64,000 nt of DNA from an uncultured Burkholderiales bacterium (GTDB lineage Bacteria > Pseudomonadota > Gammaproteobacteria > Burkholderiales > Burkholderiaceae_C): assembly GCA_945952065.1 (NCBI GenBank), contig CAMFGY010000006.1, forward strand, positions 124,001 through 188,000. Reading direction: 5' to 3'. The notes beneath the pieces are model-generated. The model was not told the origin of the DNA and ran no database searches. It saw only the letters and a list, made by a program, of their open reading frames with translations. Of the stretch, positions 646 through 18,926 are shown piece after piece (the first letter of the stretch is position 1; each line of letters opens with the position of its first letter). The position numbers were made by a program, and so were the translations under genes.

Positions 646-2085
646 TCATGAGGTCAGCCTCTTGAGCAGGGGCACCCGATTGATTTCATCCCTCAAAGGA
701 TGGCGCCCCAGCACAATCGCTGCGGGCACGGTCAATGCGCTCAAGGCCAAGCAGGCCAGAATGGCGAACCAAGGGTGGCTGGGTTCAAGCCCGGCAAAGG
801 CGACAACGGCGACCGCTGAGCTTGCCGCGCCCAAGGCGACAAGATAGCTGTGCATTGCCGTTTTGAACAGTGTGGACCAACTGAAGCCTACCAGGGCCTT
901 GACGCTGCTAAGCCAAATGAAGGCCGAGAAGAGTGCCTCAAAAGGCACCAACATCACCATTGCTTTCAGGCTGATCGAGGCGCCCACCAAAGTGGCTGCC
1001 GCCCAAACTGCCGCGGTGATGCTTGTCGCTCTGAGGACGATATCTGCGCGCCCCAATCCCGTGCAGGCCGCTGAACAGATGGCGGACGGGGCGCCAAAAG
1101 CGATTCCCAGCGCCAGCCATCGAGTCAAGGAAATGGTTTCGTCCCACTGATTTCCGTAAAGCGCTCTTACGACTGGGTGAGCAAGGAGGATCAGGCCAAG
1201 GGCGAAGGAGCTGCTCAGCATGGAGATGTAGCTGAAGGCTCTTAAAAAACTGGCTGCGACATCTTGATCTTGGCGATGTTGTTGAGCAAACAAGGCCATC
1301 GCCACATTGAAAACGGCATCTGTAATCAAGCGAGAGAACATGGCGACCAAGCCGTTGCAGCGCGAGTAAAGGCCCGCTGCATGCATGCCTTGTAATTTGC
1401 CGAGAACAAAATCCGGGACGCTGCTAGACAAGGTGCCAATCAGGCCTGACCCGGCGATTCGCCCTCCGAACCCCAGGACCTCTGGGACCCCTTTGATATT
1501 GAATCCCCAGGGTAAATTTGCTGGTCTGAAAAACTGTGAGACGAGCGCGTTGACGCAAGTGCCAGTCAAGCTGCCCCATGCCAAGCTGATTGGACCGAAG
1601 TCTTGTGCTGCGAGTCCCACCGACACCAGGGCTGTGCTGGCTGCTGCGGCAAAGCGCATGATGGCGACTCGGCCAAACTGCATTTCGCGCATCAAAAGGG
1701 CGTAGGTAATCGAACCCATTGGGTTGACAACGTAGGCAATGGCCATCAGCCACAGGATCGGTGTGATGCGCGACTCGTTATAGAACAAGCCGGCTGGATA
1801 GGCCAACACTGCAATCAACAAAGCCAGGGCACAGCCAAGGCCGAATTGCAAGGTCCAGGCCGCTCGAACTCGTGCTGCAGTCAACTCTTTGACTTGAACG
1901 ACGTATTGTCCTGCGCCCATGTCTCTGATGGAGCCGGCAAGCATCAGCAAAGCCATGGCTACAGAGAACACTCCCAATTCGTCGGGCTGAATCAGCCGGG
2001 CAATAGCCATCGACGAAAGAATATTGACGATGAGTGTGCTGTATCGATCCGCTAGCGAGAAAAAAAGTGCTCGCCTCGTGCTCAT
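646..2085 (-). CDS. Wzx-like polysaccharide flippase (MATE/MOP superfamily)
   Basis: A 479-residue, very hydrophobic protein with about 12 to 14 predicted membrane spans and the early basic/aromatic segment (RALFFSLADRYSTLIVNI) typical of RfbX/Wzx and WzxC-type polysaccharide exporters. By family it would flip undecaprenyl-linked repeat units across the inner membrane. The ATG at 2085 (MSTRRALFF) is preferred; an in-frame TTG at 2100 would add five residues. The glycosyltransferase gene follows 44 bases downstream. The roughly 300 bases upstream are AT-richer than the surroundings and hold no convincing gene. Family is clear; the exported glycan is unknown. Confidence 0.85.
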   Translation of the reverse strand: MSTRRALFFSLADRYSTLIVNILSSMAIARLIQPDELGVFSVAMALLMLAGSIRDMGAGQYVVQVKELTAARVRAAWTLQFGLGCALALLIAVLAYPAGLFYNESRITPILWLMAIAYVVNPMGSITYALLMREMQFGRVAIMRFAAAASTALVSVGLAAQDFGPISLAWGSLTGTCVNALVSQFFRPANLPWGFNIKGVPEVLGFGGRIAGSGLIGTLSSSVPDFVLGKLQGMHAAGLYSRCNGLVAMFSRLITDAVFNVAMALFAQQHRQDQDVAASFLRAFSYISMLSSSFALGLILLAHPVVRALYGNQWDETISLTRWLALGIAFGAPSAICSAACTGLGRADIVLRATSITAAVWAAATLVGASISLKAMVMLVPFEALFSAFIWLSSVKALVGFSWSTLFKTAMHSYLVALGAASSAVAVVAFAGLEPSHPWFAILACLALSALTVPAAIVLGRHPLRDEINRVPLLKRLTS

Positions 2086-2386
2086 ATTGGGATAACCCAA
2101 AGAGTGGTTTCAATTGTTTTTGTCAAAGTCGCTTCGCCTTTTGTAGGGCGTGGTGGGTGGTGGCTTATGCAGAGGGGTAATATTATGGATAAGTATAGTT
2201 ACTTTATTTAAATCATGTGTGTGCGTTGATTTGGTGTATTGCTTAAGGAATAGGGGTGTGGATTGATCAGGGAAATCTGAAGCGTGGGGCGTGAAAAAAG
2301 CTCAAGCGGGTCTAAAAAAGTAGATTGACGTAGAGCTTGTTGCGTTTTTTCTAATTTCTCAAATATTTTTTCGGATTGTATGGGGC

Positions 2387-3097
2387 TCACTGCCGATGCG
2401 TCGCTTCGGAGTTCGGAGAGAAGTCCTGCCATTTTCCGGCCGCCTTTAACTTCTCACGCAAACTGGTTTGTTGCACCCCCAACTCAATGGCGATGTGGGC
2501 TTGCTCCAATGCGCGCTCATATTCACCGATATCCGCGAGAAGCATTCCGAGATTGTAGTGAGACAAAGGGCTGTCGACCCCATTCTCGATGACTTTATCA
2601 ATCTGCTGCAGCGCTTCAGCTTTTCTGTTTCTTTTTGCCAAGTAGTCCGCAAAAATCATTCGAACCATATTGTCCTCAGGGCTGAATCGAACGCCGCGCT
2701 CCAGCCAGCATTCAACTGAATACCTAGAACCTGAAGGTGTGTCGGTCTTGTGTAGCTCCCCAAGTCGAACCATGGCAATCAGTGCTTTTATATGATTGGG
2801 GCTGGCTCGCAGTGTGTAATCGAGGTCGGAGCCGATCGTGCCTGTCATACCTCGCCGTAAATTGGCCACATCTGAATTGAAGTGAAAGGCTTCGACAACC
2901 TTCAGTTGCTCGAACTGAGTGCGATAGTTATAGGGCCCGTAGGCATTGCTGAGAGAGCCGCAGGTTTGTGCGCTCGCCATCAGTGGCCACATGCAAGCGA
3001 TGAATCCGAGCAATTTTGAAGCGCTGAGCAAAGAGGCCGGAACGGAGGCGGTCGGAGCTAGATCGCTGGGTTTCAGGGAGTGATGTTGCGCATTCAT
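2387..3097 (-). CDS. Secreted tetratricopeptide-repeat protein
   Basis: About 236 residues from ATG 3097 (MNAQHHSLK); an upstream in-frame start at 3169 would add 24 residues and displace the signal sequence from the N-terminus. A hydrophobic segment (LLGFIACMWPL) ending MASAQTCG looks like a signal peptide. The C-terminal half carries helical TPR-like pairs, including LSHYNLGMLLADIGEYERAL. Proteins of this form are common beside betaproteobacterial polysaccharide genes and probably scaffold envelope components. It lies upstream of the flippase on the same strand with a gap of about 300 bases. No Shine-Dalgarno is obvious. The partner is unknown and the C-terminus shows no PEP-CTERM tail. Confidence 0.7.
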   Translation of the reverse strand: MNAQHHSLKPSDLAPTASVPASLLSASKLLGFIACMWPLMASAQTCGSLSNAYGPYNYRTQFEQLKVVEAFHFNSDVANLRRGMTGTIGSDLDYTLRASPNHIKALIAMVRLGELHKTDTPSGSRYSVECWLERGVRFSPEDNMVRMIFADYLAKRNRKAEALQQIDKVIENGVDSPLSHYNLGMLLADIGEYERALEQAHIAIELGVQQTSLREKLKAAGKWQDFSPNSEATHRQ

Positions 3098-3468
3098 GAT
3101 TCTTTGTCGGGAGAGACCGATTGCTTGGGCGGTCGAAACAGTGCGGTCTCGCTGACACCAAGCCCTCACGGGTGCAGCGTATGGCGGTGGCGCCTGACGG
3201 GTAAGTATCGGCGATAGCAGGGCGCCAGCTTAGGGCTTCCGAGCTGCGGGCCCTGTGAATTTTTCATGTTGCGCAAACTTTGTTGCGAATTCAACCCCTG
3301 GAGTCGGTGGTGCGCGGTGTAGGGGGCGCTGTGGGGGTGCGAGAATCTGCCCGGATTTTGCAGCGGATAGTGTCGCGCCAGTTTGAGAAAGTCAGAGCAG
3401 GCTTTTTGATGGCCCCGCTTTTCGCTGCAGTGCTGGGCTTCTCACAATTATCGAATGACGAGATAAAA
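3098..3468. other. Divergent intergenic region between TPR and ACP genes
   Basis: 371 bases separate the minus-strand TPR gene from the plus-strand acyl carrier protein gene. The stretch must hold the promoters for both directions. An 8-base palindrome TTGCGCAA lies at 3269-3276, close to another TTGCGAA. I found no convincing sigma-70 pair and no TGGCAC-N5-TTGC-type sigma-54 site. The open frame running from 3280 into the ACP gene has no matching family character and is treated as non-coding. Confidence 0.4.
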
Positions 3469-3738
3469 ATGACGCTGAATAAAAGTGACATTGTTGCGGC
3501 CATCAAGGCCGAAGTGCTTCGCATTGCTTCGGATTTGGATCTTGACGCCAGCGATCTGCAGTCGGATGAGATCTTGCCGGCTTCAGGCTTGATCGACTCC
3601 GCTGGATTGCTGGAGTTGATTGCATGGTTTGAACAGGCCTATGCCATCCGAATTCCCAGTGAAGACTTCACCATCGACAAGCTGGGCAGCCTGGATCTGA
3701 TGGCTGATTATTTGCTGAGTCGCAAGGCGCAGGGCTGA
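3469..3738 (+). CDS. Acyl carrier protein, exosortase-locus type
   Basis: An 89-residue acidic, helical protein starting MTLNKSDIVAAIK. The motif GLIDSAGLLEL gives the phosphopantetheine serine at residue 44. It would carry an acyl or aminoacyl group as a thioester. The frame is open upstream to 3280, but the ATG at 3469 follows a purine-rich stretch (gacgagataaaa) and gives a normal ACP length. It is three bases upstream of the hydrolase 2 gene, so it is the first gene of the plus-strand operon running to the family 4 glycosyltransferase. A dedicated carrier beside an AMP-forming ligase suggests a specialised acyl group rather than bulk fatty acid synthesis. Confidence 0.85.
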   Translation: MTLNKSDIVAAIKAEVLRIASDLDLDASDLQSDEILPASGLIDSAGLLELIAWFEQAYAIRIPSEDFTIDKLGSLDLMADYLLSRKAQG

Positions 3739-3741
3739 TCA

Positions 3742-4614
3742 ATGGCGGTGCGGCAGCATGTAGGGCCAATCTTGGTCGAGCCGAGTTTTATTGAGGGTGC
3801 ATCGGGGCGGCTGTTTTCGGTCTTGCATCGGCCTGGCGAAGGGGCGCCAGCTTTGCGTGGCGTGGTCTTGTGCTTGCAGGGTTTCAATGAAGAGTTGAAT
3901 CGCTGCCGAAGCATGGTCACGCTTCAGGCACAGGCTTTTGCTGGCCAAGGCTTGGCGACGCTGGTGCTGGACTTGTTTGGCACGGGCGACAGCGAAGGTG
4001 AGCACGACGATGCCCGTTGGGAGCTTTGGCAAGCCGATGTGAAGCGGGCACTGCAGCATTTGCAAGGCAAGCTGCAGGTGCCTGTGGTGGCGCTGTGGGG
4101 CATTCGCTTGGCAGCAATTTTGGCTGCTCAGATGAAGTCCGAATTGCCCGATGCTCAGTTGTTGCTTTGGCAGCCGGTGCTAGACGGAAAAATGCACTTG
4201 ACGCAATTCCTGCGGGTGCGGATGGCGGCGCAGTTGGACAGGCCCGATTTACCGAAAGAGACCACGCAATCGATGCGTGCCCAGCTGGCTCAGGGAGAGT
4301 CTGTTGAAGTTGGCGGTTATGCGCTTCATCCCCAGTTCACGCGGGCCTTGGATGGATTGAAACTGGCGAACCATCCGCCGGCGCCTGGCGCTCGCGTGTT
4401 GTTGCTGGAGCAGGCCAGTGCTGACAAACCCGAGTTGTCATTGCCGAATCAAGGCTTGCTCAGTGCCTGGCAGCAGGCTGGCGTGCGCATTGAAGGGCAG
4501 GCGTTTGTGGGACCCGCTTTCTGGCAGGTGCATGAACGGGCACTGGCCCCCGATCTTATTGAAAAATCCACCGCTTGGTTGAGTGGGGCCGCCCATGAGG
4601 TGGGGCTGGCATGA
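3742..4614 (+). CDS. Exosortase A system-associated hydrolase 2
   Basis: A 290-residue alpha/beta-hydrolase-fold protein that I recognise as the hydrolase 2 family found beside exosortase A loci. It has the core strand GVVLCLQGFNEE and the acidic turn DLFGTGDSEGEHDD. At the nucleophile elbow (residues 120-124) the sequence is GIRLA, with arginine where a serine nucleophile would stand, so ordinary esterase chemistry looks unlikely. It overlaps the next gene by four bases (ATGA), which indicates translational coupling of the pair. The substrate is unknown; a role in processing the exported polysaccharide or its precursor is inferred from context only. Confidence 0.85.
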   Translation: MAVRQHVGPILVEPSFIEGASGRLFSVLHRPGEGAPALRGVVLCLQGFNEELNRCRSMVTLQAQAFAGQGLATLVLDLFGTGDSEGEHDDARWELWQADVKRALQHLQGKLQVPVVALWGIRLAAILAAQMKSELPDAQLLLWQPVLDGKMHLTQFLRVRMAAQLDRPDLPKETTQSMRAQLAQGESVEVGGYALHPQFTRALDGLKLANHPPAPGARVLLLEQASADKPELSLPNQGLLSAWQQAGVRIEGQAFVGPAFWQVHERALAPDLIEKSTAWLSGAAHEVGLA

Positions 4615-5486
4615 GTGAAACCGCGTTTTCTTTTTCTTGTGGTGCAGATCCGCTGGTTGGCATTCTTCACCAGCCTGATGTGGCGCCGAATCGTCGTGGC
4701 GTGCTGTTTGTGGTTGGCGGCGGGCCGCAGTACCGGGCCGGCGGGCACCGGCAACTGACCTTGTGGTCGAGGCGCTTGTGCGCTGAAGGCTATCCGGTGT
4801 TTCGTTTCGATTACCGCGGCATGGGCGATGCGCATGGTCGCTTCCGCGGGTTTGAAGATGTCGGGGACGATATCCGGGCGGCGCTCGACCATTTTTTTGC
4901 GATTTCGCCGGGCTTGCAGGAAGTGGTGCTGTGGGGCGAGTGCGATGCCTCTTCGGCGATTCTGTTTTATGCGCATCGAGACCCGAGGGTGAAGGGCTTG
5001 GTTCTGCTCAATCCTTGGGTGCGTACCGAAGAGGGTGAGGCCAAGGCCATTTTGCGTTTTTACTATCTGCAGCGTTTGCTGGAGCCGAGCTTTTGGCGCA
5101 AGGTGCTGAGCCTGCGCTTCAACCCCTTCGCGTCAATCAAGTCAGCTTTGGGTTTGATGCAAAAAGCCAGGGCAGGTGCGGCGCAGGGCAGCAGTCATGC
5201 GGGCGATGATGGCCAAACGCCGCGGGAAAGTGGCAGTTTGCCGGACCGCTTGTTCTCGGGTTGGAACCGATTTGCTGGGCCGGTGATGTTGGTGCTCAGT
5301 GGACGCGATTTGATTGCGCGGGAGTTTGAGCAATTGATTGAGTCCGAACCGCGTTGGCGCCAGTTGATGGCCACCAAGTCGGTGACGCGACACGATCTGG
5401 CTGATGGTGACCACACCTTCTCTTCGGCCGTGCAACGCAATCAGGTGGTGGCTTGGGGCCTTGAGTGGCTCAAGGCCCGGCCTTGA
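4611..5486 (+). CDS. Exosortase A system-associated hydrolase 1
   Basis: A 291-residue alpha/beta-hydrolase-fold protein, recognised as the hydrolase 1 family that accompanies hydrolase 2 in exosortase A loci. An oxyanion-like GGGPQYRAG loop is followed by FDYRGMGDAHG. The nucleophile elbow is GECDA with cysteine at residue 111, so a Cys-based rather than Ser-based triad is likely. DGDHTF near the C-terminus supplies the expected histidine. It overlaps hydrolase 2 by four bases and is followed 27 bases later by the GNAT-like gene. The reaction is unproven; acyl transfer from a carrier thioester or thioester cleavage would suit a cysteine nucleophile. Confidence 0.85.
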   Translation: MSETAFSFSCGADPLVGILHQPDVAPNRRGVLFVVGGGPQYRAGGHRQLTLWSRRLCAEGYPVFRFDYRGMGDAHGRFRGFEDVGDDIRAALDHFFAISPGLQEVVLWGECDASSAILFYAHRDPRVKGLVLLNPWVRTEEGEAKAILRFYYLQRLLEPSFWRKVLSLRFNPFASIKSALGLMQKARAGAAQGSSHAGDDGQTPRESGSLPDRLFSGWNRFAGPVMLVLSGRDLIAREFEQLIESEPRWRQLMATKSVTRHDLADGDHTFSSAVQRNQVVAWGLEWLKARP

Positions 5487-5513
5487 CGAAAAGACGATAA
5501 ACAACAGGGATAT

Positions 5514-6362
5514 ATGGCCAGACCTCTTATCGAAGCGGTGACGGATGCGAGCTTGCCCGAGTTTGCAGAATTCTTGCACCAGCATTTGCAGTCTTCTAGA
5601 AGTGCCGAGCAATGGGCCCAGGGTTTGCGGGTGCAGTGGTGCGCCGATCAGCCCAATTACGGTTTTGTAGTTCGCAATGAGGGCAAGATCGTCGGAGGTA
5701 TCGGGGCCTATTACGCAGACCGTGTGATTGATGGCAAGCCCGAGCGCTTTTGCAACATCACCAGCTGGTGTGTGCTCGATGCATTTCGCCAGCAAAGCAT
5801 GCGCTTGGCCATGAGCGTAGTAAGTCAGCCGGGCTGGCATTTCACCGACTTTTCGCCGACCAAGGTGGTGGGCAGCACCTTGAAGTTTTTCAAGTTCAAA
5901 GAACTGGATGAGCATGTGGCCGTGATCCTCAATCTGCCTTCCGTGGGTTTTGGCGTTCAAGTGCTCAGCGGTGCGGCCGATATTGAATCGAGTCTGCAGG
6001 GCGAGGCCCTGCGCATTTATCGTGACCACGCGCGCTTTCCTTGGCTGAGGCATGTGCTCTTGAAGAAGGGCTCGCAGTGTTGCCACATCATTTACAAGCG
6101 GCGCAGCTTCAAAGGCCTGCCCGCGGCAGATGTACTGTATTTGAGTGATCGCCAGCTGTTCAGCAAGCATTTCGCGCAACTGGGCGCGCATTTCTTGTGG
6201 CGCGGCATGGTGAGCACCCATGTGGAACGGCGCTTTTTGGATGTCGTGCCGGGTCTGCATAAATTGCGCAGTGGATTCAACCCCAAGGTGTACCTCAGCC
6301 CAAGCCTGGGGGATGCGCAGATTGACTACCTGTACTCCGAAACCATGGCCCTGGATCTTTGA
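5514..6362 (+). CDS. GNAT-like putative N-acyltransferase
   Basis: A 282-residue protein with a GNAT-like core in its first half: FVVRNEGKIVGGIGAYY (strand pair), CNITSWCVLDAFRQQSMRL (motif A region) and DFSPTKVVGSTLKFFKFKE (motif B-like turn, resembling TNxxxxxLYxKxGF). The usual Q/RxxGxG/A pyrophosphate loop is degenerate, reading RQQSMRLA, so acyl-CoA may not be bound in the canonical way. The second half is unfamiliar. It sits between the paired hydrolases and a glycosyltransferase and could attach the ACP- or CoA-borne group to an amino sugar. That role is inference from neighbours. Confidence 0.65.
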   Translation: MARPLIEAVTDASLPEFAEFLHQHLQSSRSAEQWAQGLRVQWCADQPNYGFVVRNEGKIVGGIGAYYADRVIDGKPERFCNITSWCVLDAFRQQSMRLAMSVVSQPGWHFTDFSPTKVVGSTLKFFKFKELDEHVAVILNLPSVGFGVQVLSGAADIESSLQGEALRIYRDHARFPWLRHVLLKKGSQCCHIIYKRRSFKGLPAADVLYLSDRQLFSKHFAQLGAHFLWRGMVSTHVERRFLDVVPGLHKLRSGFNPKVYLSPSLGDAQIDYLYSETMALDL

Positions 6363-6374
6363 AGGCAAACTGCG

Positions 6375-7634
6375 ATGGAATCCAAGAAGAAGATCCTCAT
6401 GGTGGCGTTTCACTATCCTCCGGTGAAAGGCAGCAGTGGGATTCAACGCACGCTGAAGTTTTCCAACTACCTGCGAGATCATGGCTGGGAGCCCTTGATC
6501 TTGACCGTCAAGCCGAGCGTGCACGAGTTGATCAGCGACGATCAAATGGGCGAGATCCCCACAGGCATGGTGGTGGAGCGGGCTTTTGCATTCAACACTG
6601 CGCGTGATCTTTCCTTCAAGGGCCGCTATTTGGGTTGGATGGCGCAGCCGGATCGTTGGGTCACTTGGTGGCCCGCCGGCGTGTGGACGGGCATGCAAAT
6701 GATTCGTCGCCACAAGCCTGCGGCGATTTTTTCCACCTGCCCGATCACCACGGCCCACATGATTGGGCACAGCTTGGCTCGTTTGAGCGGCCTGCCTTGG
6801 GTGGCCGATTGCCGCGATTCCATCACCGAGCCAGGCTACCCAACGGATCCCCAAACCTGGCGCAGCAATCGGCGCTTGGAACAGAAGATGGTGAAGCGGG
6901 CCACCAAGGTGGTGTTTACCACCGAAGGCACCCGCGAGATGTACGCGCAGCGCTACCCAGAGCAAGCGGCCAGCAAGTGGTCCGTCATCGAGAACGGCTA
7001 CGACGAAGAGAACTTTCGTGATGCGGAGCGCGACTTTGACCCTCAGCCCCTGGGTCGCAAAGGGCAGCTAACGCTGATTCACAGCGGTATTCTCTACCCG
7101 CAGGAGCGCGACCCTCGGCCGTTTTTTTCGGCGCTGCGCCGGATGCGCGCGGCCGGGCAGGTGAGTGCCGATCGTTTGCGCATCGTCTTGCGGGCCACGG
7201 GCAGCGACCCCGCGTATCGCGAGATGCTCCGCGAATACGGCATCGAAGACTTGGTGGAGTTGGCGCCGCCCATCGCCTATCGCGACGCTTTGCGTGAAAT
7301 GCTTTGTGCCGATGGCTTGCTGCTGTTCCAAGCCGCCATGTGCAACCATCAGGTGCCGGCCAAGCTTTACGAATACTTCCGCGCAGGCCGCCCCATCTTC
7401 AGTCTGACCGACACCCAAGGCAACACAGCGCAGGCGCTGCGGCGTGGTGGCGCCGATGACATCGTCAACATTGCCGATGAACATGACATCGAGGCCGGCC
7501 TGCTGCGCTTCTTGACGCGTTTGCACGCTGGCGAGGCTTTGGGTGTGCGCCCCGAAGTGGCTTCAGCGAACTCGCGGCGAGCCCGTACCGCTGAGTTGGC
7601 CGCTTTGCTGGAGGGTCTGGGCCATGGCCGTTGA
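6375..7634 (+). CDS. Family 4 glycosyltransferase (GT-B)
   Basis: A 419-residue protein with the N-terminal GT4 signature FHYPPVKGSSGIQRTLKF, a central NGYDEENF turn, and a C-terminal donor-binding domain ending VPAKLYEYFRAGRPIFSL. This is a retaining GT-B enzyme likely to add a hexose during polysaccharide assembly on the cytoplasmic face of the membrane. It starts 12 bases after the GNAT-like gene and is the last gene of this plus-strand operon, running convergently into the minus-strand ACP gene at 7670. Donor and acceptor are not predictable from sequence. Confidence 0.85.
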   Translation: MESKKKILMVAFHYPPVKGSSGIQRTLKFSNYLRDHGWEPLILTVKPSVHELISDDQMGEIPTGMVVERAFAFNTARDLSFKGRYLGWMAQPDRWVTWWPAGVWTGMQMIRRHKPAAIFSTCPITTAHMIGHSLARLSGLPWVADCRDSITEPGYPTDPQTWRSNRRLEQKMVKRATKVVFTTEGTREMYAQRYPEQAASKWSVIENGYDEENFRDAERDFDPQPLGRKGQLTLIHSGILYPQERDPRPFFSALRRMRAAGQVSADRLRIVLRATGSDPAYREMLREYGIEDLVELAPPIAYRDALREMLCADGLLLFQAAMCNHQVPAKLYEYFRAGRPIFSLTDTQGNTAQALRRGGADDIVNIADEHDIEAGLLRFLTRLHAGEALGVRPEVASANSRRARTAELAALLEGLGHGR

Positions 7635-7669
7635 GACCATGGCGCAGGCTTCAAACTGCTGGGGGAGAA

Positions 7670-7921
7670 TTACTGCCCCAATTTGCCTTGCACAAAGCTG
7701 AGCAGCGTGCCGAAGGTCTGGAATACCGAACCATCGATCTCATCATCGTCCACGGAAAAGCCCAGCTTTTCCTCAAACGCAGTCAGCAGTGAGACCACGC
7801 CCATGGAATCCATCTCAGGCAAAGCGCCGAGCAGCGGGGTGGCTTCATTGAAAGCACTGGCTCGACCCTCCAGATTTAACGTTTCATCCAGCAATGAGCG
7901 CAGCACCTGCTTGGTGTCCAT
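7670..7921 (-). CDS. Second acyl carrier protein
   Basis: An 83-residue acidic protein (MDTKQVLRSLLDETLNL) with the prosthetic-group motif PEMDSMGVV; the modified serine is residue 39. It differs clearly from the ACP at 3469, so the locus has two distinct carriers. It is transcribed divergently from the AMP-forming ligase, which begins 110 bases away, and such an ACP is a regular companion of that ligase in exosortase A loci. It likely accepts the ligase's activated substrate. Partner specificity is inferred from position. Confidence 0.85.
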   Translation of the reverse strand: MDTKQVLRSLLDETLNLEGRASAFNEATPLLGALPEMDSMGVVSLLTAFEEKLGFSVDDDEIDGSVFQTFGTLLSFVQGKLGQ

Positions 7922-8030
7922 GAATAATCCTCTGTGTCGGTAGCTAAAAAAACTCCGGCGATTCTAGTGGCGAGCGCAGCCGCGCTGCCGCTAGGCCCGT
8001 CAAAGCCTACTTTTCTGATCCCATCTGCCC

Positions 8031-9635
8031 ATGAATGATTCCTCACTCTTGCATGAATTGATTTCTTTGAGTGCGAAGCGGACACCGGATGCTGCAGCCC
8101 TGAGCTACGGCGGGCAGACGCTCAGCTATGGCCAGTTGCAGGCCCAGGTGGCCCATGCGGCCGCGGCCTTGAACGCCTTGGGCTTGGGGCGCGGCGAGCG
8201 GGTAGCGATCTACCTGGAAAAACGCTTTGAGACCGTGGTGGCCAGCTTTGCCGCGCCTGCCGCCGGCGGCGTGTTTGTGCCGATGAACCCCTTGTTGAAG
8301 GCGGAGCAAGTGGCATTCATTGCGCAAGACTGCGATGTTCAAGTACTGCTCACTTCGCCGGAACGTCTCAACTTGCTGCTGCAGCAGTTGCCTTCTTGCC
8401 CCAGCATCAAGCACATCATCTTGACCTCGCCAGCGGCGCAGCCGCCGGCCTTGCCGGAAGGGGTGCGCTTGCATGACTGGAGCCGCTTGCTTGAGACGCC
8501 TTTGTGTGAGCCGCATCGCGTCATCGATACCGATATCTGCGCCATCTTGTACACCTCCGGCAGCACCGGCCGGCCCAAGGGCGTGGTCCTGTCGCATCGC
8601 AATATGGTGGCCGGCGCCAAGAGCGTGGCCTCGTATCTGGAAAACAAGGCCGACGACACCTTGCTGGCAGCGCTGCCGCTGTCTTTTGATGCCGGTTTCA
8701 GCCAGTTGACGACTGCCTTCCATGTGGGCGCCAGAGTCGTCTTGCTGAACTATCTCTTGCCGCGCGATGTGCTCAAGGCCATGGAGCGCGAGCGTGTGAC
8801 GGGGCTGACCGCGGTGCCGCCGCTGTACATCCAGCTCTCTCAACTGGAGTGGCCCGCCTCCATCACCGAGCATTTGCGCTACTTCGCCAACACTGGTGGC
8901 CGTATGCCTCGGGAGACCCTGGACTTGCTGCGGCAGCGGGCACCTCGCAGCCTGCCTTTCCTGATGTACGGGCTGACGGAGGCCTTCCGCTCGACCTATC
9001 TGCCGCCCAGCGAAGTGGATCGCCGCCCCGACTCGATCGGCAAGGCGATTCCGAATGCGGAAATTCTGGTCTTGCGCGAAGACGGCAGTCCATGCGATGT
9101 GGATGAGCCCGGCGAGTTGGTGCACCGCGGGGCCTTGGTGGGGCAGGGCTATTGGAACGATGCGGAAAAGACCGCAGAACGCTACAAGCTTCTGCCCGCA
9201 GGCACAGCCGGCCGCGCCAGTGGTTTGCAGTTGCCTGAGTACGCGGTGTTCTCCGGGGACACGGTGCGCCGCGATGCCGAAGGCTTTTTGTACTTTATTG
9301 GTCGGCGCGACGAGATGATGAAGACCTCGGGCTACCGGGTCAGCCCGACCGAAGTCGAAGAGATCCTCTATGCAACCAAACGCGTGGGTGAGTGCGTGGC
9401 CTTTGGTGTGGATCACCCCAGCCTGGGGCAGGCCATTCAAGTCATCGTCACGGCTCCCGCAGGGGCTGACGGAGTGGATATCGCGGCCTTGCAGCAGGAT
9501 TGCCGGCAGCGCATGCCTGCGTATATGGTGCCGGCCGGTTTCGAAGTTCAGACTGGGCCCTTGCCACGAAACCCTAACGGCAAAATTGATCGCAAGTTGT
9601 TGTCCACCGCTTGGGTGGAGCGTCAGCAGGGCTGA
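8031..9635 (+). CDS. Acyl ligase (AMP-forming), exosortase A-associated
   Basis: A 534-residue member of the ANL superfamily. The adenylation motifs are in order: ILYTSGSTGRPKGVVLSH (A3) near residue 173, MYGLTEAFRS (A5), GDTVRRDAEGFLYFIGR (A7), SGYRVSPTEVEEIL (A8) and NPNGKIDRKLL with the A10 lysine. It would activate a carboxylic acid as acyl-AMP and pass it to CoA or a phosphopantetheine arm. I recognise it as the ligase family of exosortase A loci. It is divergent from the second ACP gene and 62 bases upstream of the decarboxylase, with which it is probably co-transcribed. The substrate acid is unknown. Confidence 0.9.
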   Translation: MNDSSLLHELISLSAKRTPDAAALSYGGQTLSYGQLQAQVAHAAAALNALGLGRGERVAIYLEKRFETVVASFAAPAAGGVFVPMNPLLKAEQVAFIAQDCDVQVLLTSPERLNLLLQQLPSCPSIKHIILTSPAAQPPALPEGVRLHDWSRLLETPLCEPHRVIDTDICAILYTSGSTGRPKGVVLSHRNMVAGAKSVASYLENKADDTLLAALPLSFDAGFSQLTTAFHVGARVVLLNYLLPRDVLKAMERERVTGLTAVPPLYIQLSQLEWPASITEHLRYFANTGGRMPRETLDLLRQRAPRSLPFLMYGLTEAFRSTYLPPSEVDRRPDSIGKAIPNAEILVLREDGSPCDVDEPGELVHRGALVGQGYWNDAEKTAERYKLLPAGTAGRASGLQLPEYAVFSGDTVRRDAEGFLYFIGRRDEMMKTSGYRVSPTEVEEILYATKRVGECVAFGVDHPSLGQAIQVIVTAPAGADGVDIAALQQDCRQRMPAYMVPAGFEVQTGPLPRNPNGKIDRKLLSTAWVERQQG

Positions 9636-9697
9636 GGCCTGCGGTGCCCCGTAAGCCTTGCAGCGCAACTCACAGAATTCAAGAGGAAATTCAAATC

Positions 9698-10954
9698 ATG
9701 TCGGTTCAAGAACCCAGCCTGCCCAAACGAGCGCCAGAGCATGTCACCATGGAGCAGTTCGCGGTGCGCGAGGGCGAGTTGGTGCTTGGCGGTGAGCGCT
9801 TGTCGGTGCTGGCTGAACGTGTGGGTCAAACGCCGTTTTATGCCTATGACCGGCAACTCTTGAAGGACCGCGTCGCGAGCTTGCGTCAGGCATTGCCCGC
9901 GGGCATTGAGTTGCACTACGCCATGAAGGCGAATCCCATGCCCGCCGTCGTCGCCCTGATGGCGGGCTTGGTGGACGGCATTGATGTGGCTTCCGCAGGC
10001 GAGCTCAAAGTGGCCTTGGACGCAGGTGCTGTGGCTCATGACATCAGCTTTGCCGGCCCCGGCAAGCGTGAGCAGGAGTTGCGCCAGGCAGTGGCCTCGC
10101 GCGTGTTGATCAATGTGGAGTCAATGCGCGAAGTGCATTTGCTCGGTCACATATCAGAGCAGCTTGGGCTGCCGGCGCGGGTGGCGCTGCGCGTCAATCC
10201 GGATTTCGAACTCAAAGGTTCGGGCATGAAGATGGGCGGCGGCCCCAAGCAGTTCGGGGTGGATGTGGAACAGCTTCCTGAACTCATGGCTGAGCTGTCG
10301 CGGCGCCACTTGGTCTTTGAAGGCTTCCATTTGTTTGCGGGCTCACAAAACTTGCGTGCCGAAGCGATTTGCGAGGCTCAGCAGAAGTCTTTTGAACTGG
10401 CCTTGCGTTTGGCCGCGCAGGCGCCGGCTCCGGTGCGTTTTCTGAATTTAGGGGGTGGATTTGGCATCCCCTACTTCCCTGGCGAACAGCGTTTGGACTT
10501 GCAGCCGATTGCGGAGAACCTGGCCGCCTTGCAAGCGAGAGCGCGCCAAGAAATGCCTGAAGCCAAGCTGGTGATTGAGTTGGGTCGCTATTTTGTGGGC
10601 GAGGCCGGCATCTATGTCACTCGAATCTTGGATCGCAAGGTTTCGCGCGGCCATGTGTTCTTGGTCACCGACGGTGGTTTGAATCATCATTTGTCGGCAT
10701 CGGGCAACTTTGGTCAGGTCATCCGCAAAAACTATCCGGTCACGATTGGCAATCGCATGAATGCGGCGCAGCGCGAAGTCGCCTCGGTGGTTGGGCCCCT
10801 GTGTACGCCGCTTGATTTGCTGGCCGATCGCATGGAACTCCCTCAGGCTCAAGTTGGAGATTTGGCCGTGGTCTTCCAGTCAGGGGCTTACGGCGCCAGC
10901 GCCAGTCCCCAGGCCTTTTTGGGTCATGCCTCGGTGGTGGAAGTCCTGGTTTGA
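9698..10954 (+). CDS. PLP-dependent decarboxylase, exosortase A-associated
   Basis: A 418-residue fold-type III (alanine racemase/DAP decarboxylase-like) enzyme. The PLP lysine is K78 in YAMKANP, and a phosphate-binding LNLGGGFGIPYF lies mid-protein. The start at 9698 follows AGAGGA at 9682; the frame is open further upstream, but that part overlaps the ligase gene's end region and lacks family character. By family it decarboxylates a D- or meso-configured amino acid such as diaminopimelate, ornithine or a relative. With the ligase and ACPs it could supply an amine-bearing building block for the polysaccharide. That link is inference. Confidence 0.9.
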   Translation: MSVQEPSLPKRAPEHVTMEQFAVREGELVLGGERLSVLAERVGQTPFYAYDRQLLKDRVASLRQALPAGIELHYAMKANPMPAVVALMAGLVDGIDVASAGELKVALDAGAVAHDISFAGPGKREQELRQAVASRVLINVESMREVHLLGHISEQLGLPARVALRVNPDFELKGSGMKMGGGPKQFGVDVEQLPELMAELSRRHLVFEGFHLFAGSQNLRAEAICEAQQKSFELALRLAAQAPAPVRFLNLGGGFGIPYFPGEQRLDLQPIAENLAALQARARQEMPEAKLVIELGRYFVGEAGIYVTRILDRKVSRGHVFLVTDGGLNHHLSASGNFGQVIRKNYPVTIGNRMNAAQREVASVVGPLCTPLDLLADRMELPQAQVGDLAVVFQSGAYGASASPQAFLGHASVVEVLV

Positions 10955-11112
10955 CGCAGCGCGCGGCGGAGTTTGACACGGGATGATCAGCCGCGTGCAG
11001 GTCCCGTGCGTTGCCAGCATTCTCTTGAAAGAGTTAATTTTTCCCAAGTCGAAGTGCCGATCTTCTGTTGTTTGCATCGGCCTCGTCTTGCTTATGAGGT
11101 CTAATCCCGCGC

Positions 11113-13116
11113 ATGAAAAACGTCCCCACCGCTGAGTTCCCTTTTGAGTTGGATGCGAACGGCAAGCCGAAGATTGCCTTGGACGCCGCAGCCGCTTACA
11201 GCTACGGTCAGTTGCTGCGCCAAACCGAGACCACCTTGCTGGACCTGTTCGGTCGCGGTTTGCTCTCGGGCACGACGCACACCTGTTTGGGGCAGGAGTT
11301 GTGCCAAATGTCGGTGGTGCGTGCCTTGGATCATGCGGACGATGTGGTTTTGTCCAATCACCGCAACCACGGGCATTTTCTGACCTACAGCGGCAATGTC
11401 ACCGGCCTCCTGGCCGAGGTCATGGGGCGAGAGGCGGGCGTTTGCGGTGGTTATGGTGGCAGCCAACACATGGCTTACCGGCATTTCCACAGCAATGGCG
11501 TGCAGGCGGGCATGACCGGCATCGGCGTGGGCCTGGCCATGGCCTTGCAGCAGCGCGGCTCCAAGGGGCTGGTTGCGGTGATGATCGGTGACGGTACGCT
11601 GGGAGAAGGCTTGCTCTACGAGAGCATGAATCTGGCCTCCATTTGGAAGCTGCCGGTGCTGTTTGTGGTTGAAAACAATGGCATTGCGCAAACCACCGAG
11701 ACCTCTTACTCGATGGGCGGCAGCATCTTGGCACGTGGCCAGGCCTTTGGCTTGCGCAGCTGGGAGTTGGACGATGCGGCGCCTGACTTCTTGGCTCAGG
11801 CCGAAGCGGTGGTGAAGGAGATGCGCACCAGCCCAGGGGCGGGATTCCTGTGCATCAATACGCAACGACTTGGCCCGCACAGCAAGGGCGATGATTTGCG
11901 TCCCGAGGAGCTCAAGCAACACATCGCCCGCCGTGATCCCTTGATGGCTTTGCGTCGGCAATTGGATGCGACCCAAGCCGAGCATTTGGACGCCACCATC
12001 AAGGCTCATGTGGGGGCTGCTGAGGCTCGCGCCATGGCGTCGCCGGAAGCGCAGTTTGAGAGTCTGCGTGAACATTGTTTGCGTGAGCCCGTTGTCAGCA
12101 CCGCACCTCATCAACAGGCCAAACAGCCCAATGTGCGGACCGCCATCAACCTGGCCTTGCGAGACTTGCTGCAGCATGACCCGCGTGTCGTGGTCTTGGG
12201 CGAGGATTTGCATGAACCTTATGGCGGCGCCTTCAAGGTGACGGCAGGCCTGTCCTCGGCCTTTGAGGGGCGCGTGCTTTCCACCCCGATCAGCGAGGCC
12301 GGCATCACAGGCGCTGGCATCGGTTTGGCTTTGGCCGGCATGCGGCCCGTTGTGGAAATCATGTTTGCGGATTTCCTGACGCTGACGGTAGATCAGCTCT
12401 ACAACCACGCGGTCAAATTCCCCGGCATGTTCCCCGACACCGAAGTGCCCATCGTGGTGCGCGCTCCCGCGGGCGGACGGCGCGGTTATGGCCCCACCCA
12501 CAGCCAGAGCCCGGAGAACATCCTGGTGTCCATTCCAGGCCTGAGTGTGGTGTACGGCAGCCACCGACACAACGTTGGTCAGTTGCTGGTCAATGCGGTC
12601 ACCGCTTGGCCCAACCCGACCGTCTTCATGGAGCACAAGCTGCTTTATTCCGAGGCGCAAGATCCCAAGGACTATGTGGAGTTGCCAGCGCACGAGGCCG
12701 ATCCGGGCGCTGCGCTGTTCCCCACCTTGCGGCGCGCTGGCGGCAGCGACACCCCGGATGTCACCTTGCTCAGCTTCGGGGGCATGTTGCCGCATGTCGA
12801 ACGCGCGGCGGCCCGCTTGCAGGCCGAAGAAGAGTTGCAGGTGGAGATCATTGCGCCCAGCTTGTTGGCCCCGTGGCCGCGCCACACCTTGTTGCCCCTG
12901 CTGCTGGAGCGCGACTGCATCTTGGTGGTGGAAGAGTCGCACCATGAGTACGGTGTCAGTGCCGAGTTGCTGGCATCGCTGGCGGAGGCCGGCTACAAGG
13001 GGACCGTAGCCCGCCTGGGGCTGCCGCCGGTGCCCATCGCCGCAGCGCGAAGCCTTGAGTTCGCACAAATGATCGACGACGCCACCATTGTGGCCAGTGT
13101 GCTCGACCTGCTTTGA
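11113..13116 (+). CDS. 2-oxoacid dehydrogenase E1, alpha and beta fused
   Basis: A 667-residue thiamine-diphosphate enzyme. Residues about 1-320 match an E1 alpha subunit, with the cofactor motif GDGTLGEG near residue 157 ending in VVENN. Residues about 340-667 match an E1 beta subunit (VVVLGEDL, ISEAGITGAGIG, PAGGRRGYGP). Subunits that are separate in most pyruvate, acetoin and branched-chain complexes are thus one polypeptide. A GAGGT at 11096 serves the ATG. It would decarboxylate a 2-oxoacid and pass the acyl group to the lipoyl arm of the E2 encoded 50 bases downstream. No E3 gene is adjacent. Substrate is unknown; the setting suggests polysaccharide decoration rather than central metabolism. 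Confidence 0.85.
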   Translation: MKNVPTAEFPFELDANGKPKIALDAAAAYSYGQLLRQTETTLLDLFGRGLLSGTTHTCLGQELCQMSVVRALDHADDVVLSNHRNHGHFLTYSGNVTGLLAEVMGREAGVCGGYGGSQHMAYRHFHSNGVQAGMTGIGVGLAMALQQRGSKGLVAVMIGDGTLGEGLLYESMNLASIWKLPVLFVVENNGIAQTTETSYSMGGSILARGQAFGLRSWELDDAAPDFLAQAEAVVKEMRTSPGAGFLCINTQRLGPHSKGDDLRPEELKQHIARRDPLMALRRQLDATQAEHLDATIKAHVGAAEARAMASPEAQFESLREHCLREPVVSTAPHQQAKQPNVRTAINLALRDLLQHDPRVVVLGEDLHEPYGGAFKVTAGLSSAFEGRVLSTPISEAGITGAGIGLALAGMRPVVEIMFADFLTLTVDQLYNHAVKFPGMFPDTEVPIVVRAPAGGRRGYGPTHSQSPENILVSIPGLSVVYGSHRHNVGQLLVNAVTAWPNPTVFMEHKLLYSEAQDPKDYVELPAHEADPGAALFPTLRRAGGSDTPDVTLLSFGGMLPHVERAAARLQAEEELQVEIIAPSLLAPWPRHTLLPLLLERDCILVVEESHHEYGVSAELLASLAEAGYKGTVARLGLPPVPIAAARSLEFAQMIDDATIVASVLDLL

Positions 13117-13166
13117 AGCCCGCCCCATCGAGGCTTTGCTCCCCATTTTTCTAAGAGTTCTTCACC

Positions 13167-14288
13167 ATGGCCATTGCAATCAACGTTCCACGCGTCAATA
13201 ACAACGACGATGAGGTCAAACTGGTATCACTGTCAGCCGTGGTCGGCAGCCGAGTTGCTGCTGGCGATGTGATCGCTGAGGTTGAAACCGACAAAGCGGT
13301 GGTCGAGGTTGAAGCTCACGCAGACGGCTATGTGCTGGCCGTGCTGGGCGAGATTGATACGCAGCTGCGAGTCGGCTCTGTGCTGCTGTGGCTGGGCGAA
13401 ACGGCGGATGAAGAGGTTCCCAAGAGCATCAGCCGTGAGGACCGCGCCGCACAGGCCGGTGGCACAACTGGGGCCGCCGCCCCCACGGCCAAGGCCAATC
13501 TCTTGCTGCGCCAGCATGGCTTGCGTGCCGAACAGGTACCGGCCTCCGGTGAGCGGCTGAGTGCCGCTGATGTGCAGCGTTATCTCGACGCGCAAGGGGG
13601 GCATGGCAGTGCCTCGGCGGCAGTGCCTGCGGTGCGTCGCGAAGTCAGCGCCAGCAGCTTGTCGGTGCCGGGCGAAGTGCAAGCCCTGGCAAGCCATGAA
13701 AAAGGCATGTTGTCCACGGTGACCTGGCATCGTGACCATGCTGTGCCTGGCTATATTGAAATCAGCTACGAACAGGCTGCATGGCTGGAAGCCGCCAAAG
13801 CGCATCAGGCCGAAACTGGCGCCTTGTTCAGCCCATTGTTGCCTTTGATGGGCGCACGTTTGGTAGAGATCGCCAAGGACCATCCCAAGATCAACGCCAC
13901 CATGGTGGAGGGTGGCCGCTACCACTACGCGCAGGTCAATCTCGGCTTCACGGTGCAAGTGGCCGAGGTGCTTTATTTGACCGTGGTTCAAGCGGCTGAA
14001 CAGAAGAGCAAGGGCCAAGTGGTCAGCGAGTTGGTCGAGTTGCAGCGCTTGGCTTCGGGGCACAAGCTCTCGCCGCAACAGTGCACGGGAGCGACACTGA
14101 GTTTTTCCAGCATGGCGCGCTGGAAGGTCGGGCGCCATATTCCGGTGCTTTCACCCTTCACCAGCTTGATGATTGCGCACACTGCGGTCGACGAGCAAAC
14201 CGGCATCTTGGGGGCCACTTATGATCACCGGGTGCTCAGCGGCGCAGATGTGGTCAAGGTGCTCAAGTTGCTGAGCCGCCCGGCCTGA
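13167..14288 (+). CDS. Dihydrolipoyl acyltransferase-like E2
   Basis: A 373-residue E2-like protein. Residues 1-78 are one lipoyl domain with the lipoylated lysine K43 in EVETDKAVVEVEA. Residues about 110-145 resemble a subunit-binding domain (ANLLLRQHGLRAEQVPASG). Residues about 180-373 are the acyltransferase core. Near the C-terminus the usual HRxxDG active site reads HRVLSG: the histidine (H354) stays but the aspartate is serine. It is 50 bases downstream of the fused E1 and probably forms a complex with it. Either it transfers acyl groups with altered chemistry or it serves mainly as a swinging-arm scaffold. Confidence 0.85.
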   Translation: MAIAINVPRVNNNDDEVKLVSLSAVVGSRVAAGDVIAEVETDKAVVEVEAHADGYVLAVLGEIDTQLRVGSVLLWLGETADEEVPKSISREDRAAQAGGTTGAAAPTAKANLLLRQHGLRAEQVPASGERLSAADVQRYLDAQGGHGSASAAVPAVRREVSASSLSVPGEVQALASHEKGMLSTVTWHRDHAVPGYIEISYEQAAWLEAAKAHQAETGALFSPLLPLMGARLVEIAKDHPKINATMVEGGRYHYAQVNLGFTVQVAEVLYLTVVQAAEQKSKGQVVSELVELQRLASGHKLSPQQCTGATLSFSSMARWKVGRHIPVLSPFTSLMIAHTAVDEQTGILGATYDHRVLSGADVVKVLKLLSRPA

Positions 14289-14408
14289 GTTCGGCTACAA
14301 CCGGCTTCGTCTGCAGAGGGCGCAAGGCCCTGGATGGAGTGGGCCTGGCCTGACGCCACTGGCTCATTTCCTTCCTGTACTTTTGCCCCGTTTTGTCGAA
14401 GCCCATTC

Positions 14409-16043
14409 ATGAGTCGACTTCTTTTTTCTTCTGAAGCTGTGGCCCCAAGCCCAGGGCCGAGCGGCCTGCGTTTGGGGGGCGCACGCGAGTTGTTCTTGCT
14501 CGCCCTGTGGCTGCTCAGCACCCTAGGCTTGCGCACGCTGACCGTGCCCGATGAAGGTCGCTATGGCGGTGTGGCGCGGGAAATGCTGCTCAGTGGCGAC
14601 TGGATGTTGCCCACACTCAATGGCATGCCTTACTTCCACAAGCCGGTGCTGCTGTACTGGCTGGATATCTTGGGCATGCACGTGTTCGGTATCAGTGAGT
14701 TTGCTTTGCGATTGGCGCCGGCGTTGATGGCTTGGCTCTTGGGCGCAGCGTTTTTCTATCATTTGCGGCGTTGGCATGGGCTGCTCACGGCCCGTGTCGG
14801 CTTGGCCATGCTGGCGACCACGCCTTTGTTTTTCTATGGTGGGCAGTTCAACAACCACGATATGGGCGTGGCGTCCTGCATTGGGATTGCGGTTCTGTGC
14901 TTGTATGAAGCTTTGGCTCATGACCGCGCACGGCGCGCCCAGGCTGGCGTGGGGCGGCGTCAGGCCTGGGTCTTTTTGGCTTTGGGATGGGCGTTTTGCG
15001 GCCTGGGCGTCTTGGCCAAGGGCTTGATCGGTGTGGTCTTGCCCGCATTGATTCTGGGACCATGGCTGCTCGCGCAAGGCCGTTGGCGCCAAATTTTCTG
15101 GCTGCTTCATCCGCTTGGACTATTGGTTTTTGCCGCCGTGGCCTTGCCTTGGATGCTGGCGATGCAGCATCGCTTTGATGGCTTTTTTGACTACTTCATT
15201 GTGGGCCAGCACTTCCGTCGCTTTGCGGGTGATAGCTTCAACAACGCCCAGCCTTGGTGGTTTTATCTGGCCTTCTTTCCTCTCGTGACCTTGCCGTGGT
15301 CATTGCGGCTTTGGCCCGCGTTGCGGCAGGCTTTGTCGTCCGTGCGCGGCGGGGCCCAGCTGGGGCAGGGCGCTGAGCGCGTCGGCCTGTATGGGTGGTG
15401 GTGTGTTGCCGTCATCGGCTTCTTTTCTTTGCCGAATTCCAAGCTGCCCGGCTATGTGGCGCCAGCGCTTGTGCCCTTTATCGCGCTGATGGCTTTGACC
15501 TGTGTCTCGGGCGAAGGGCGCAACGCCAAGCTCGTGGCCCCTAGGCTCTGGAAAGGTGCGCTTGCTTTCATGGCCTTGGCCTGTGTGGCCGCCATTGTGT
15601 TTGTGGCGCAGCAGCAGCCCAAGTCGACGCGCCCGCTGGGCCTGGTTTTGGCGCAAGAGATGCGCCCTGGTGACCGCATTGCCTATTTGCAGAACTATCC
15701 TTTTGATTTGGCCTTCTATGCCGATCTGCGCAGGCCGGTGATCGTGGTCGAAGACTGGGCCGACACTCAATTGCTCAGCCGCGACAGCTGGCGCAAAGAG
15801 TTGCTGGATGCGGCGAAGTTCAAGCCCGAGCTGGGGCGCGAAGTGCTGTGGCAAAAGGGGCGATCAGGTCTGCTGTGCCACTCTTCGGCGGTTTGGCTGG
15901 TGGGCTCCAAGGCGGCATTGAAGGCCTTACCTGAGATGGAGGCTTCGCCGCGATTGCTGCAGCAAGTGCAAGCGATGCTGCCGGGTGATCGAGAGCCGCA
16001 GTTGTGGCGTATCGCCGGGCAGCCTTGCCCGACTGCGCAGTAA
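14409..16043 (+). CDS. ArnT-like membrane glycosyltransferase
   Basis: About 544 residues from ATG 14409 (MSRLLFSSEA); an upstream frame start at 14334 is less likely. It has many hydrophobic spans and the family signature DEGRYGGVAREMLLSGDWMLP followed by FHKPVLLYW, as in ArnT and other lipid-phosphate-sugar transferases (GT39/GT83-type). Such enzymes take a sugar from a polyprenyl phosphate and add it to a glycolipid or protein at the periplasmic face. It follows the E2 gene by 120 bases on the same strand. It could modify lipid A or the locus polysaccharide; the acceptor is unknown. Confidence 0.85.
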   Translation: MSRLLFSSEAVAPSPGPSGLRLGGARELFLLALWLLSTLGLRTLTVPDEGRYGGVAREMLLSGDWMLPTLNGMPYFHKPVLLYWLDILGMHVFGISEFALRLAPALMAWLLGAAFFYHLRRWHGLLTARVGLAMLATTPLFFYGGQFNNHDMGVASCIGIAVLCLYEALAHDRARRAQAGVGRRQAWVFLALGWAFCGLGVLAKGLIGVVLPALILGPWLLAQGRWRQIFWLLHPLGLLVFAAVALPWMLAMQHRFDGFFDYFIVGQHFRRFAGDSFNNAQPWWFYLAFFPLVTLPWSLRLWPALRQALSSVRGGAQLGQGAERVGLYGWWCVAVIGFFSLPNSKLPGYVAPALVPFIALMALTCVSGEGRNAKLVAPRLWKGALAFMALACVAAIVFVAQQQPKSTRPLGLVLAQEMRPGDRIAYLQNYPFDLAFYADLRRPVIVVEDWADTQLLSRDSWRKELLDAAKFKPELGREVLWQKGRSGLLCHSSAVWLVGSKAALKALPEMEASPRLLQQVQAMLPGDREPQLWRIAGQPCPTAQ

Positions 16044-18737: not shown

Positions 18738-18926
18738 ATTACTCCCCATAGCTCATGATGTTGTCAAATCAGTGTATCGCTGCGCGACACGCCTTGTTCG
18801 GGTGCTTCTGCGGCGGGGGATTTGTCCTGTTTACGCCAAAAGGTGCCGCCAGTGCGCGCCAAGGCTCAACTTGGCCCTACACTTCGCGCCTTTCATTTTT
18901 TCTGTCCCAGCCTCTGGAGGCTCACG

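Follow-up and report, generated by a model that had tools for sequence, protein, structure and literature searches.

We describe a gene cluster in a 64,000-nucleotide stretch of DNA (the window; GenBank assembly GCA_945952065.1, contig CAMFGY010000006.1, positions 124,001 to 188,000) from the Paucibacter-like genome of an uncultured Burkholderiales bacterium. The cluster follows an exosortase A (XrtA) polysaccharide locus and encodes two acyl carrier proteins (ACP1 and ACP2), an AMP-forming ligase, a pyridoxal phosphate (PLP)-dependent decarboxylase, two α/β-hydrolase-like proteins (hydr1 and hydr2), a GNAT-like protein and the E1 and E2 components of a 2-oxoacid dehydrogenase-like system. Comparison with other genomes showed that the linkage of E1, E2 and ACP1 is real and conserved. 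The cluster appears to be composed of two modules, namely module A (ACP2, ligase and decarboxylase) and module B (E1-E2-ACP1, accompanied by the GNAT gene in 19 of 21 loci). We consider it an evenly balanced proposition that two carrier-protein loading routes, one of them including a transfer from E2 to ACP1, serve a single XrtA-associated polysaccharide, a scheme for which we infer every chemical step, substrate and acceptor; in its best reading, one of the routes would be a variant of the 2-oxoacid dehydrogenase type in which E1 and E2 act with an ACP.

For the comparison, loci were collected using E2 alone as the query, and neighbouring genes were ignored in the choice; this gave 20 other loci, or 21 with the window. 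A first search of genome contigs with six peptide patterns taken from one E2 returned 17 loci and missed distant members. The 17 loci include representatives of Comamonadaceae, Rhodocyclus, Azonexus, Dechloromonas and Accumulibacter, a metagenome-assembled genome (MAG) of Nitrosomonas, and the alphaproteobacterium Hoeflea poritis. Profile searches added three new loci, all containing E1-E2-ACP1 (in one of them, L141, the contig ends within E1). Of 199 genomes in the Rhodocyclus family, these searches found E2 in four, including two known before, and of 398 genomes of the phylum they found it in two, one being that of the window; a class-level search of 369 genomes revealed no further close E2.

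In all the 21 loci, E1 is located directly upstream of E2, and ACP1 is present; in 19 of them, ACP1 is directly downstream of E2. The two exceptions are the Paucibacter loci, i.e. the window and the locus of Paucibacter sp. Y2R2-4 (L071), the closest named relative that has this cluster (E2 identity 89%), where ACP1 is found elsewhere in the cluster. In the first-search loci other than that of Paucibacter, the gap is 7-32 bp between E1 and E2 (16 of 16) and -4 to 52 bp between E2 and ACP1 (16 of 16), and 15 of the 16 contain the GNAT gene and 14 the hydr2 and hydr1 genes. Over all the E2-anchored loci, GNAT was counted in 19, hydr1 and hydr2 in 17 each, the ligase in at least 12 and the decarboxylase in at least 10; these counts are limited to the DNA examined at each locus, and those for ligase and decarboxylase are minimum values owing to the ends of contigs or flanks. 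One locus (L143) has ten genes on one strand, in the order ACP2-E1-E2-ACP1-hydr2-hydr1-GNAT-glycosyltransferase-ligase-decarboxylase.

The E1 of the window is 57-95% identical to the 16 other E1 rows aligned. Relatives of E1 at 30-36% identity exist in other genomes, and the one that was mapped (L022) showed none of the companion genes. In Comamonadaceae, Rhodocyclus, Azonexus, Accumulibacter and the Nitrosomonas MAG, E1/E2 occur together with ACP1 and GNAT, and the same hydrolase subtype is common to these lineages except for the MAG, where the contig ends first. XrtA was above cut-off in 18 of the 20 other E2 genomes. Among the first-search genomes, XrtA was above cut-off in 16 of 17 and TIGR03099 (the decarboxylase) in 15 of 17, Hoeflea lacking both and a second genome (G432, locus L077) lacking TIGR03099; of those found later, XrtA is present in G497 and G630 and absent from G656, a genome that is 99% complete. 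The view that E1/E2 belong with this locus is thus supported.

The two E2 genomes without XrtA, Hoeflea (L086) and G656 (L141), belong to different classes, and both hold E1-E2-ACP1. No relative of the ligase, the decarboxylase, the hydrolases or the window GNAT was detected in the DNA examined there (21 kb for L086, 7.5 kb for L141). Since no ligase-family protein was found in these two loci, none is at hand to load ACP1, and the occurrence of the triad alone in both provides the best indication that E2 and ACP1 are partners. As a separate observation, a methyltransferase family with an N-terminal extension is found beside the triad in both (L086 7017-8009 and L141 2343-3275; 46% identical).

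A decarboxylase match was present in 25 genomes, and 20 of them supplied a second set of loci, anchored on this gene (L051-L070); the genome of the window, G012, G001, G002 and G017 were left out. In these 20 loci, which lack E1/E2, a stand-alone carrier protein beside the ligase is the rule (ACP2 in 20, ligase in 19), and hydr1 and hydr2 are present in 18 each; ACP1 and GNAT are present in none. Within the genus, the decarboxylase is found in 17 of 17 congeners (two of them less than 80% complete) and the fused E1 in only one (2 of 18 genomes, counting that of the window). In the hydr1 and hydr2 trees (quick LG+G4 trees of the best matching segments with a query coverage of 60% or more, with long-branch warnings for L058, L066, L067 and L068), the E1/E2 loci form one side of a single branch, with Shimodaira-Hasegawa-like approximate likelihood ratio (SH-aLRT) support of 99 and 98, respectively. 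Locus counts and trees together indicate that E1/E2 are associated with ACP1, GNAT and a particular hydrolase subtype, while ligase, decarboxylase and ACP2 look like a general XrtA module. The preliminary description of this DNA, based on its sequence alone, had suggested that E1/E2 also feed the carrier, and had inferred their linkage to the ligase/decarboxylase pathway. The association with the locus holds, as the E2-anchored loci of distant Betaproteobacteria show, but the partners are ACP1 and GNAT rather than the ligase/decarboxylase pair; the contrary case named in that description, in which relatives lack E1/E2 beside these genes, applies, if taken literally, within the genus (the fused E1 is in just one of the 17 congeners) and does not apply outside it.

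As regards module A, the nearest PDB entry for the decarboxylase is BtrK (E 2.6e-79, vs 3.8e-54 for the best diaminopimelate decarboxylase), and its GPLCTP motif, which it has in common with BtrK in the alignment, is present in 29 of 29 relatives. BtrK is described as acting on glutamyl-ACP (PMC7857480). For the pocket fragment of the ligase, the closest structure is 3WV4 (82 bits), which is VinN (PMC11253843). Residues D230 and R331 of VinN, proposed to recognize the amino and α-carboxyl groups of the substrate (PMC7756342), are matched without gaps at both sites by D220 and R320 of the ligase (numbering counted from the alignment), and the motifs PLSFDAGF and YGLTEAFR are each conserved in 30 of 30 relatives. 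The retention of these residues, along with BtrK being the nearest solved relative of the decarboxylase, points to a β-alanyl or γ-aminobutyryl (GABA) thioester on ACP2 as the likely product of module A. The chemistry of these two exosortase companions, which the preliminary description had given as unknown, can therefore be narrowed to a putative VinN-like and a putative BtrK-like step.

Two known systems, VinN-VinL-VinO of vicenistatin and BolO-BolC-BolN of bolagladin, likewise combine a stand-alone adenylating enzyme, a stand-alone ACP and a PLP decarboxylase (PMC11284099, PMC7756342, PMC11253843). They differ in that they are part of polyketide synthase/non-ribosomal peptide synthetase clusters, whereas the present genes stand beside an XrtA polysaccharide locus, and in that F231 and S299 of VinN are replaced here by Ala and Thr. 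The resemblance to BtrI-BtrJ-BtrK of butirosin resides in the decarboxylase; BtrJ is an ATP-grasp ligase, while the ligase of the window is of the AMP-forming type.

As for module B, the lipoyl Lys of E2 (in an ETDKA motif, ESEKA in L086), its DHR His and the Ser of ACP1 are conserved in 18 of 18 cases. Like the pyruvate and other 2-oxoacid dehydrogenase complexes, the system has a thiamine diphosphate-type E1, a lipoyl domain, the DHR catalytic motif and the E2 fold. Unlike them, it has the α and β parts of E1 fused, a carrier-protein gene after E2 in 19 of 21 loci, and a low E2 score against PF00198 (55.6 bits, compared with 270-279 bits for the three other E2s of the same genome). The closest match to the α part of E1 is pyruvate dehydrogenase E1, a hint that the substrate may be pyruvate or some other small 2-oxoacid. 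A redox-motif pattern for E3, used without a positive control, had no match in the 21 loci. Two other features of E2 were considered and put aside. Altered chemistry from the loss of the catalytic Asp (the motif reads DHRVLSG) was rejected, because this position is variable among relatives (N, S, G, H or D); Azotobacter E2p is described as having Asn there (PMC8421416). The C-terminus, short in comparison with two E2s of the same genome, had suggested an open coenzyme A (CoA) side, but in the structural alignment the tail is shorter by a few residues, and the idea is a weak one.

The two proteins matching TIGR03100 and TIGR03101, which had been described as α/β-hydrolase-like, are probably not ordinary hydrolases. 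A Cys is present at the nucleophile elbow of hydr1 in 33 of 33 rows, with D267-H268 in at least 95% of the rows, and such a nucleophile would fit acyl transfer. In hydr2, all 34 aligned rows, excluding those below half coverage, have Arg at the nucleophile site, and this protein should therefore not act as a normal hydrolase.

The AlphaFold model of the GNAT protein (mean predicted local distance difference test score 91.2) shows a tandem GNAT fold. The protein had no NCBIfam match, and its profile had no match among PDB sequences at E 0.1. The top fold matches of the model are tied and include the glucosamine N-acetyltransferases 4zm6 and 5kga and AAC(2'). Similarity in fold does not establish function, but an amino sugar is a fair guess for the acceptor. 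Across 59 genomes, the GNAT profile was matched in that of the window, in the one congener with E1/E2, and in G049. The latter genome has no E1 match, and its GNAT relative (37% identical) belongs to a row ACP-FkbH-MaoC/SDR-GNAT (L095 9485-14003). FkbH proteins load carriers; GNAT would thus be accompanied by a carrier plus a loader in either setting, and the row in G049 is perhaps another carrier-based acyl route.

The following scheme can be proposed. In route A, the ligase would activate the side-chain carboxyl of Asp, methyl-Asp or Glu and load it onto ACP2, and the decarboxylase would strip the α-carboxyl group, leaving a β-alanyl or GABA thioester. In route B, E1 would decarboxylate a 2-oxoacid and pass the acyl group to the lipoyl arm of E2, whose acyltransferase domain would use the phosphopantetheine of ACP1 as the acceptor in place of CoA; E3 would be borrowed from the housekeeping complexes. 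The GNAT protein would move the acyl group from ACP1 to an amine, most simply a glycan amino sugar freed by the deacetylases of the locus, while hydr1, with its Cys nucleophile, would be an ACP-to-glycan acyltransferase and hydr2 its non-catalytic partner. The product, we infer, decorates the polysaccharide. Movement of the acyl group from lipoyl to ACP1 is the most likely function of module B, with E2 as the presumed loader of ACP1. That E1-E2-ACP1 is a new acyl-loading machine, transferring from lipoyl directly to a dedicated ACP, and an exchangeable unit present in XrtA loci and, together with the methyltransferase, in XrtA-free genomes, is a more tentative proposal, to which we give slightly less than an even chance.

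Several observations weigh against this scheme. In the window, ACP1 and E2 stand 9.4 kb apart. E1 is absent from 16 of the 17 congeners, so that route B is dispensable for the polysaccharide in general. The Ala that replaces F231 of VinN makes the size of the ligase substrate unsure. The best ligase and decarboxylase trees need five and three label changes, respectively, of which well-supported branches force just two and one; the contrast with hydr1 and hydr2 is firm in part for the ligase and not firm for the decarboxylase. In addition, Hoeflea has near its triad a GNAT-like gene of another type (L086 5908-6960, next to the methyltransferase; PF13527 23.1 bits, cut-off 25), and a GNAT partner may therefore not be confined to XrtA loci. 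Finally, the ordinary E2 fold is retained, with no sign of CoA-site loss in the tests made, so that E2 may still produce acyl-CoA, and the fold matches of GNAT are near ties, many of them acetyl-CoA users by title.

These last two points, together with catalytic residues that are those of CoA-using E2s, are also what speaks for a different explanation, in which E1/E2 would be an ordinary acyl-CoA complex feeding a dedicated pool to GNAT, and ACP1 would serve some other step, e.g. as the carrier of what ligase and decarboxylase, or else hydr1, produce. We regard this as rather unlikely, considering that ACP1 follows E2 immediately in L086 and L141, where the DNA examined showed no relative of ligase, decarboxylase, hydrolases or window GNAT, and is missing from all the 20 loci that have the decarboxylase and ACP2 without E1/E2. 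It is also conceivable, but quite improbable, that the two routes converge, i.e. that GNAT uses acyl-ACP1 to acylate the ω-amine of β-alanyl- or GABA-ACP2, and that the N-acyl unit is then transferred to the glycan. N-Acylation of the decarboxylated aminoacyl-ACP is the known next step for vicenistatin and has been proposed for bolagladin (PMC11284099, PMC7756342), all ten genes share one strand in L143, and TIGR03099 is above cut-off in 15 of the 17 E2 genomes tested; however, in vicenistatin biosynthesis this step is described as catalysed by the adenylating enzyme VinM and not by a GNAT (PMC11284099), and G432, whose genome may be incomplete, has no TIGR03099 match above cut-off. Lastly, the restriction of the fused E1 to two genomes of the genus might suggest a recently acquired metabolic operon that is a chance neighbour of the polysaccharide genes, but this is strongly disfavoured, because ACP1 and GNAT travel with E1/E2 across distant Betaproteobacteria, mostly with the same hydrolase subtype, and nearly all the other E2 genomes have XrtA.

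The setting of the cluster is as follows (Table 1). The contig also carries a complete XrtA locus, upstream of the window (~96.8-117.4 kb), which comprises genes for a chain-length determinant, a tyrosine kinase, an ATPase, a deacetylase, FemAB, stp1, XrtA, stp2, an amidotransferase, stp3 and an O-ligase. ACP1 starts ~12 kb downstream of the O-ligase gene, and the interval contains a second amidotransferase-like gene, glycosyltransferases, a flippase and a tetratricopeptide repeat (TPR) gene. The XrtA gene and members of TIGR03098-03101 are thus all present, the latter four above the curated NCBIfam cut-offs; E1, E2, ACP1 and GNAT matched none of the exosortase-labelled NCBIfam models. All the genes grouped in the preliminary description were confirmed as open frames, and its count of two ACPs was correct, except that ACP2 lies on the opposite strand. 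The serine motif of ACP2 is conserved in the aligned relatives despite the low Pfam score; the row of L085 in this comparison covers its first residues only.

Table 1. Features of the cluster and its immediate neighbours (window positions).
Feature	Position	Strand	Basis or remark
MOP-type flippase (neighbour)	646..2100	-	PRK10459 129 bits, below cut-off
TPR protein, repeatedly found near loci of both kinds	2387..3169	-	In 9/20 decarboxylase-anchored and 5/16 E2-anchored comparison loci
ACP1, 89-aa carrier protein, DSA phosphopantetheine motif	3469..3738	+	PF00550 28.4 bits, passes Pfam
hydr2, TIGR03101 α/β-hydrolase-like, Arg at nucleophile site	3742..4614	+	244 bits, cut-off 203
hydr1, TIGR03100 α/β-hydrolase-like, Cys nucleophile elbow G-E-C-D	4611..5486	+	311 bits, cut-off 168
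GNAT, tandem GNAT-fold putative N-acyltransferase	5514..6362	+	Pfam match marginal (20.8, cut-off 20.7)
Family-4-type glycosyltransferase	6375..7634	+	PF13579, PF13439
ACP2, carrier protein of 83 aa with DSM motif, ligase/decarboxylase module	7670..7921	-	PF00550 19.1 bits, under cut-off 20.8
Ligase TIGR03098, VinN-like adenylating enzyme (D220, R320)	8031..9635	+	775 bits
PLP decarboxylase TIGR03099, BtrK-like	9698..10954	+	630 bits; start ATG 9698 picked by comparison with L071
E1, fused α-β thiamine diphosphate 2-oxoacid dehydrogenase E1	11113..13116	+	PF00676, PF02779, PF02780
E2, lipoyl domain, subunit-binding-like segment (by eye) and 2-oxoacid_dh acyltransferase domain	13167..14288	+	Pfam for lipoyl and catalytic domains
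PMT_2/ArnT-type membrane glycosyltransferase (neighbour)	14334..16043	+	PF13231; PRK13279 203 bits, below cut-off

The PMT_2/ArnT-type gene adjoins E2 also in L071 (79% match), and in none of the 16 other loci of that comparison. Some further genes were observed in and around these loci. A plus-strand open reading frame (window 7683-7943) overlies ACP2 on the opposite strand and resembles no gene. A large gene of the ornithine/lysine/arginine decarboxylase type follows downstream of the cluster (window 18822-21185), scoring 654 bits, below cut-off, with the profile of lysine decarboxylase LdcC. Upstream of the window (L008 715-2067), a PaaK-like AMP-forming ligase adjoins the O-ligase gene, and relatives of these two genes are likewise neighbours in L021 and L085. 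The Azonexaceae form of the locus contains an open frame of 1542 aa (L080 14313-18941) that combines VanZ, O-antigen ligase and acyltransferase-3 domains.

Among the open-licence literature matches listed, no paper tied exosortase loci to these ACPs, the decarboxylase or E1/E2, and none described acyl transfer from an E2 to an ACP. Related PEP-CTERM systems have been tied to floc formation. The NCBIfam names of the ligase, the decarboxylase and the two 'hydrolases' are placeholders, and the present analysis offers testable reactions for these exosortase A companions and points to an acyl transfer from lipoyl to ACP. If this is true, exosortase-associated glycans should bear predictable β-alanyl or GABA and acyl groups, and E1/E2 complexes would make more than acyl-CoA, so that a very old family of enzymes would have gained a new role.

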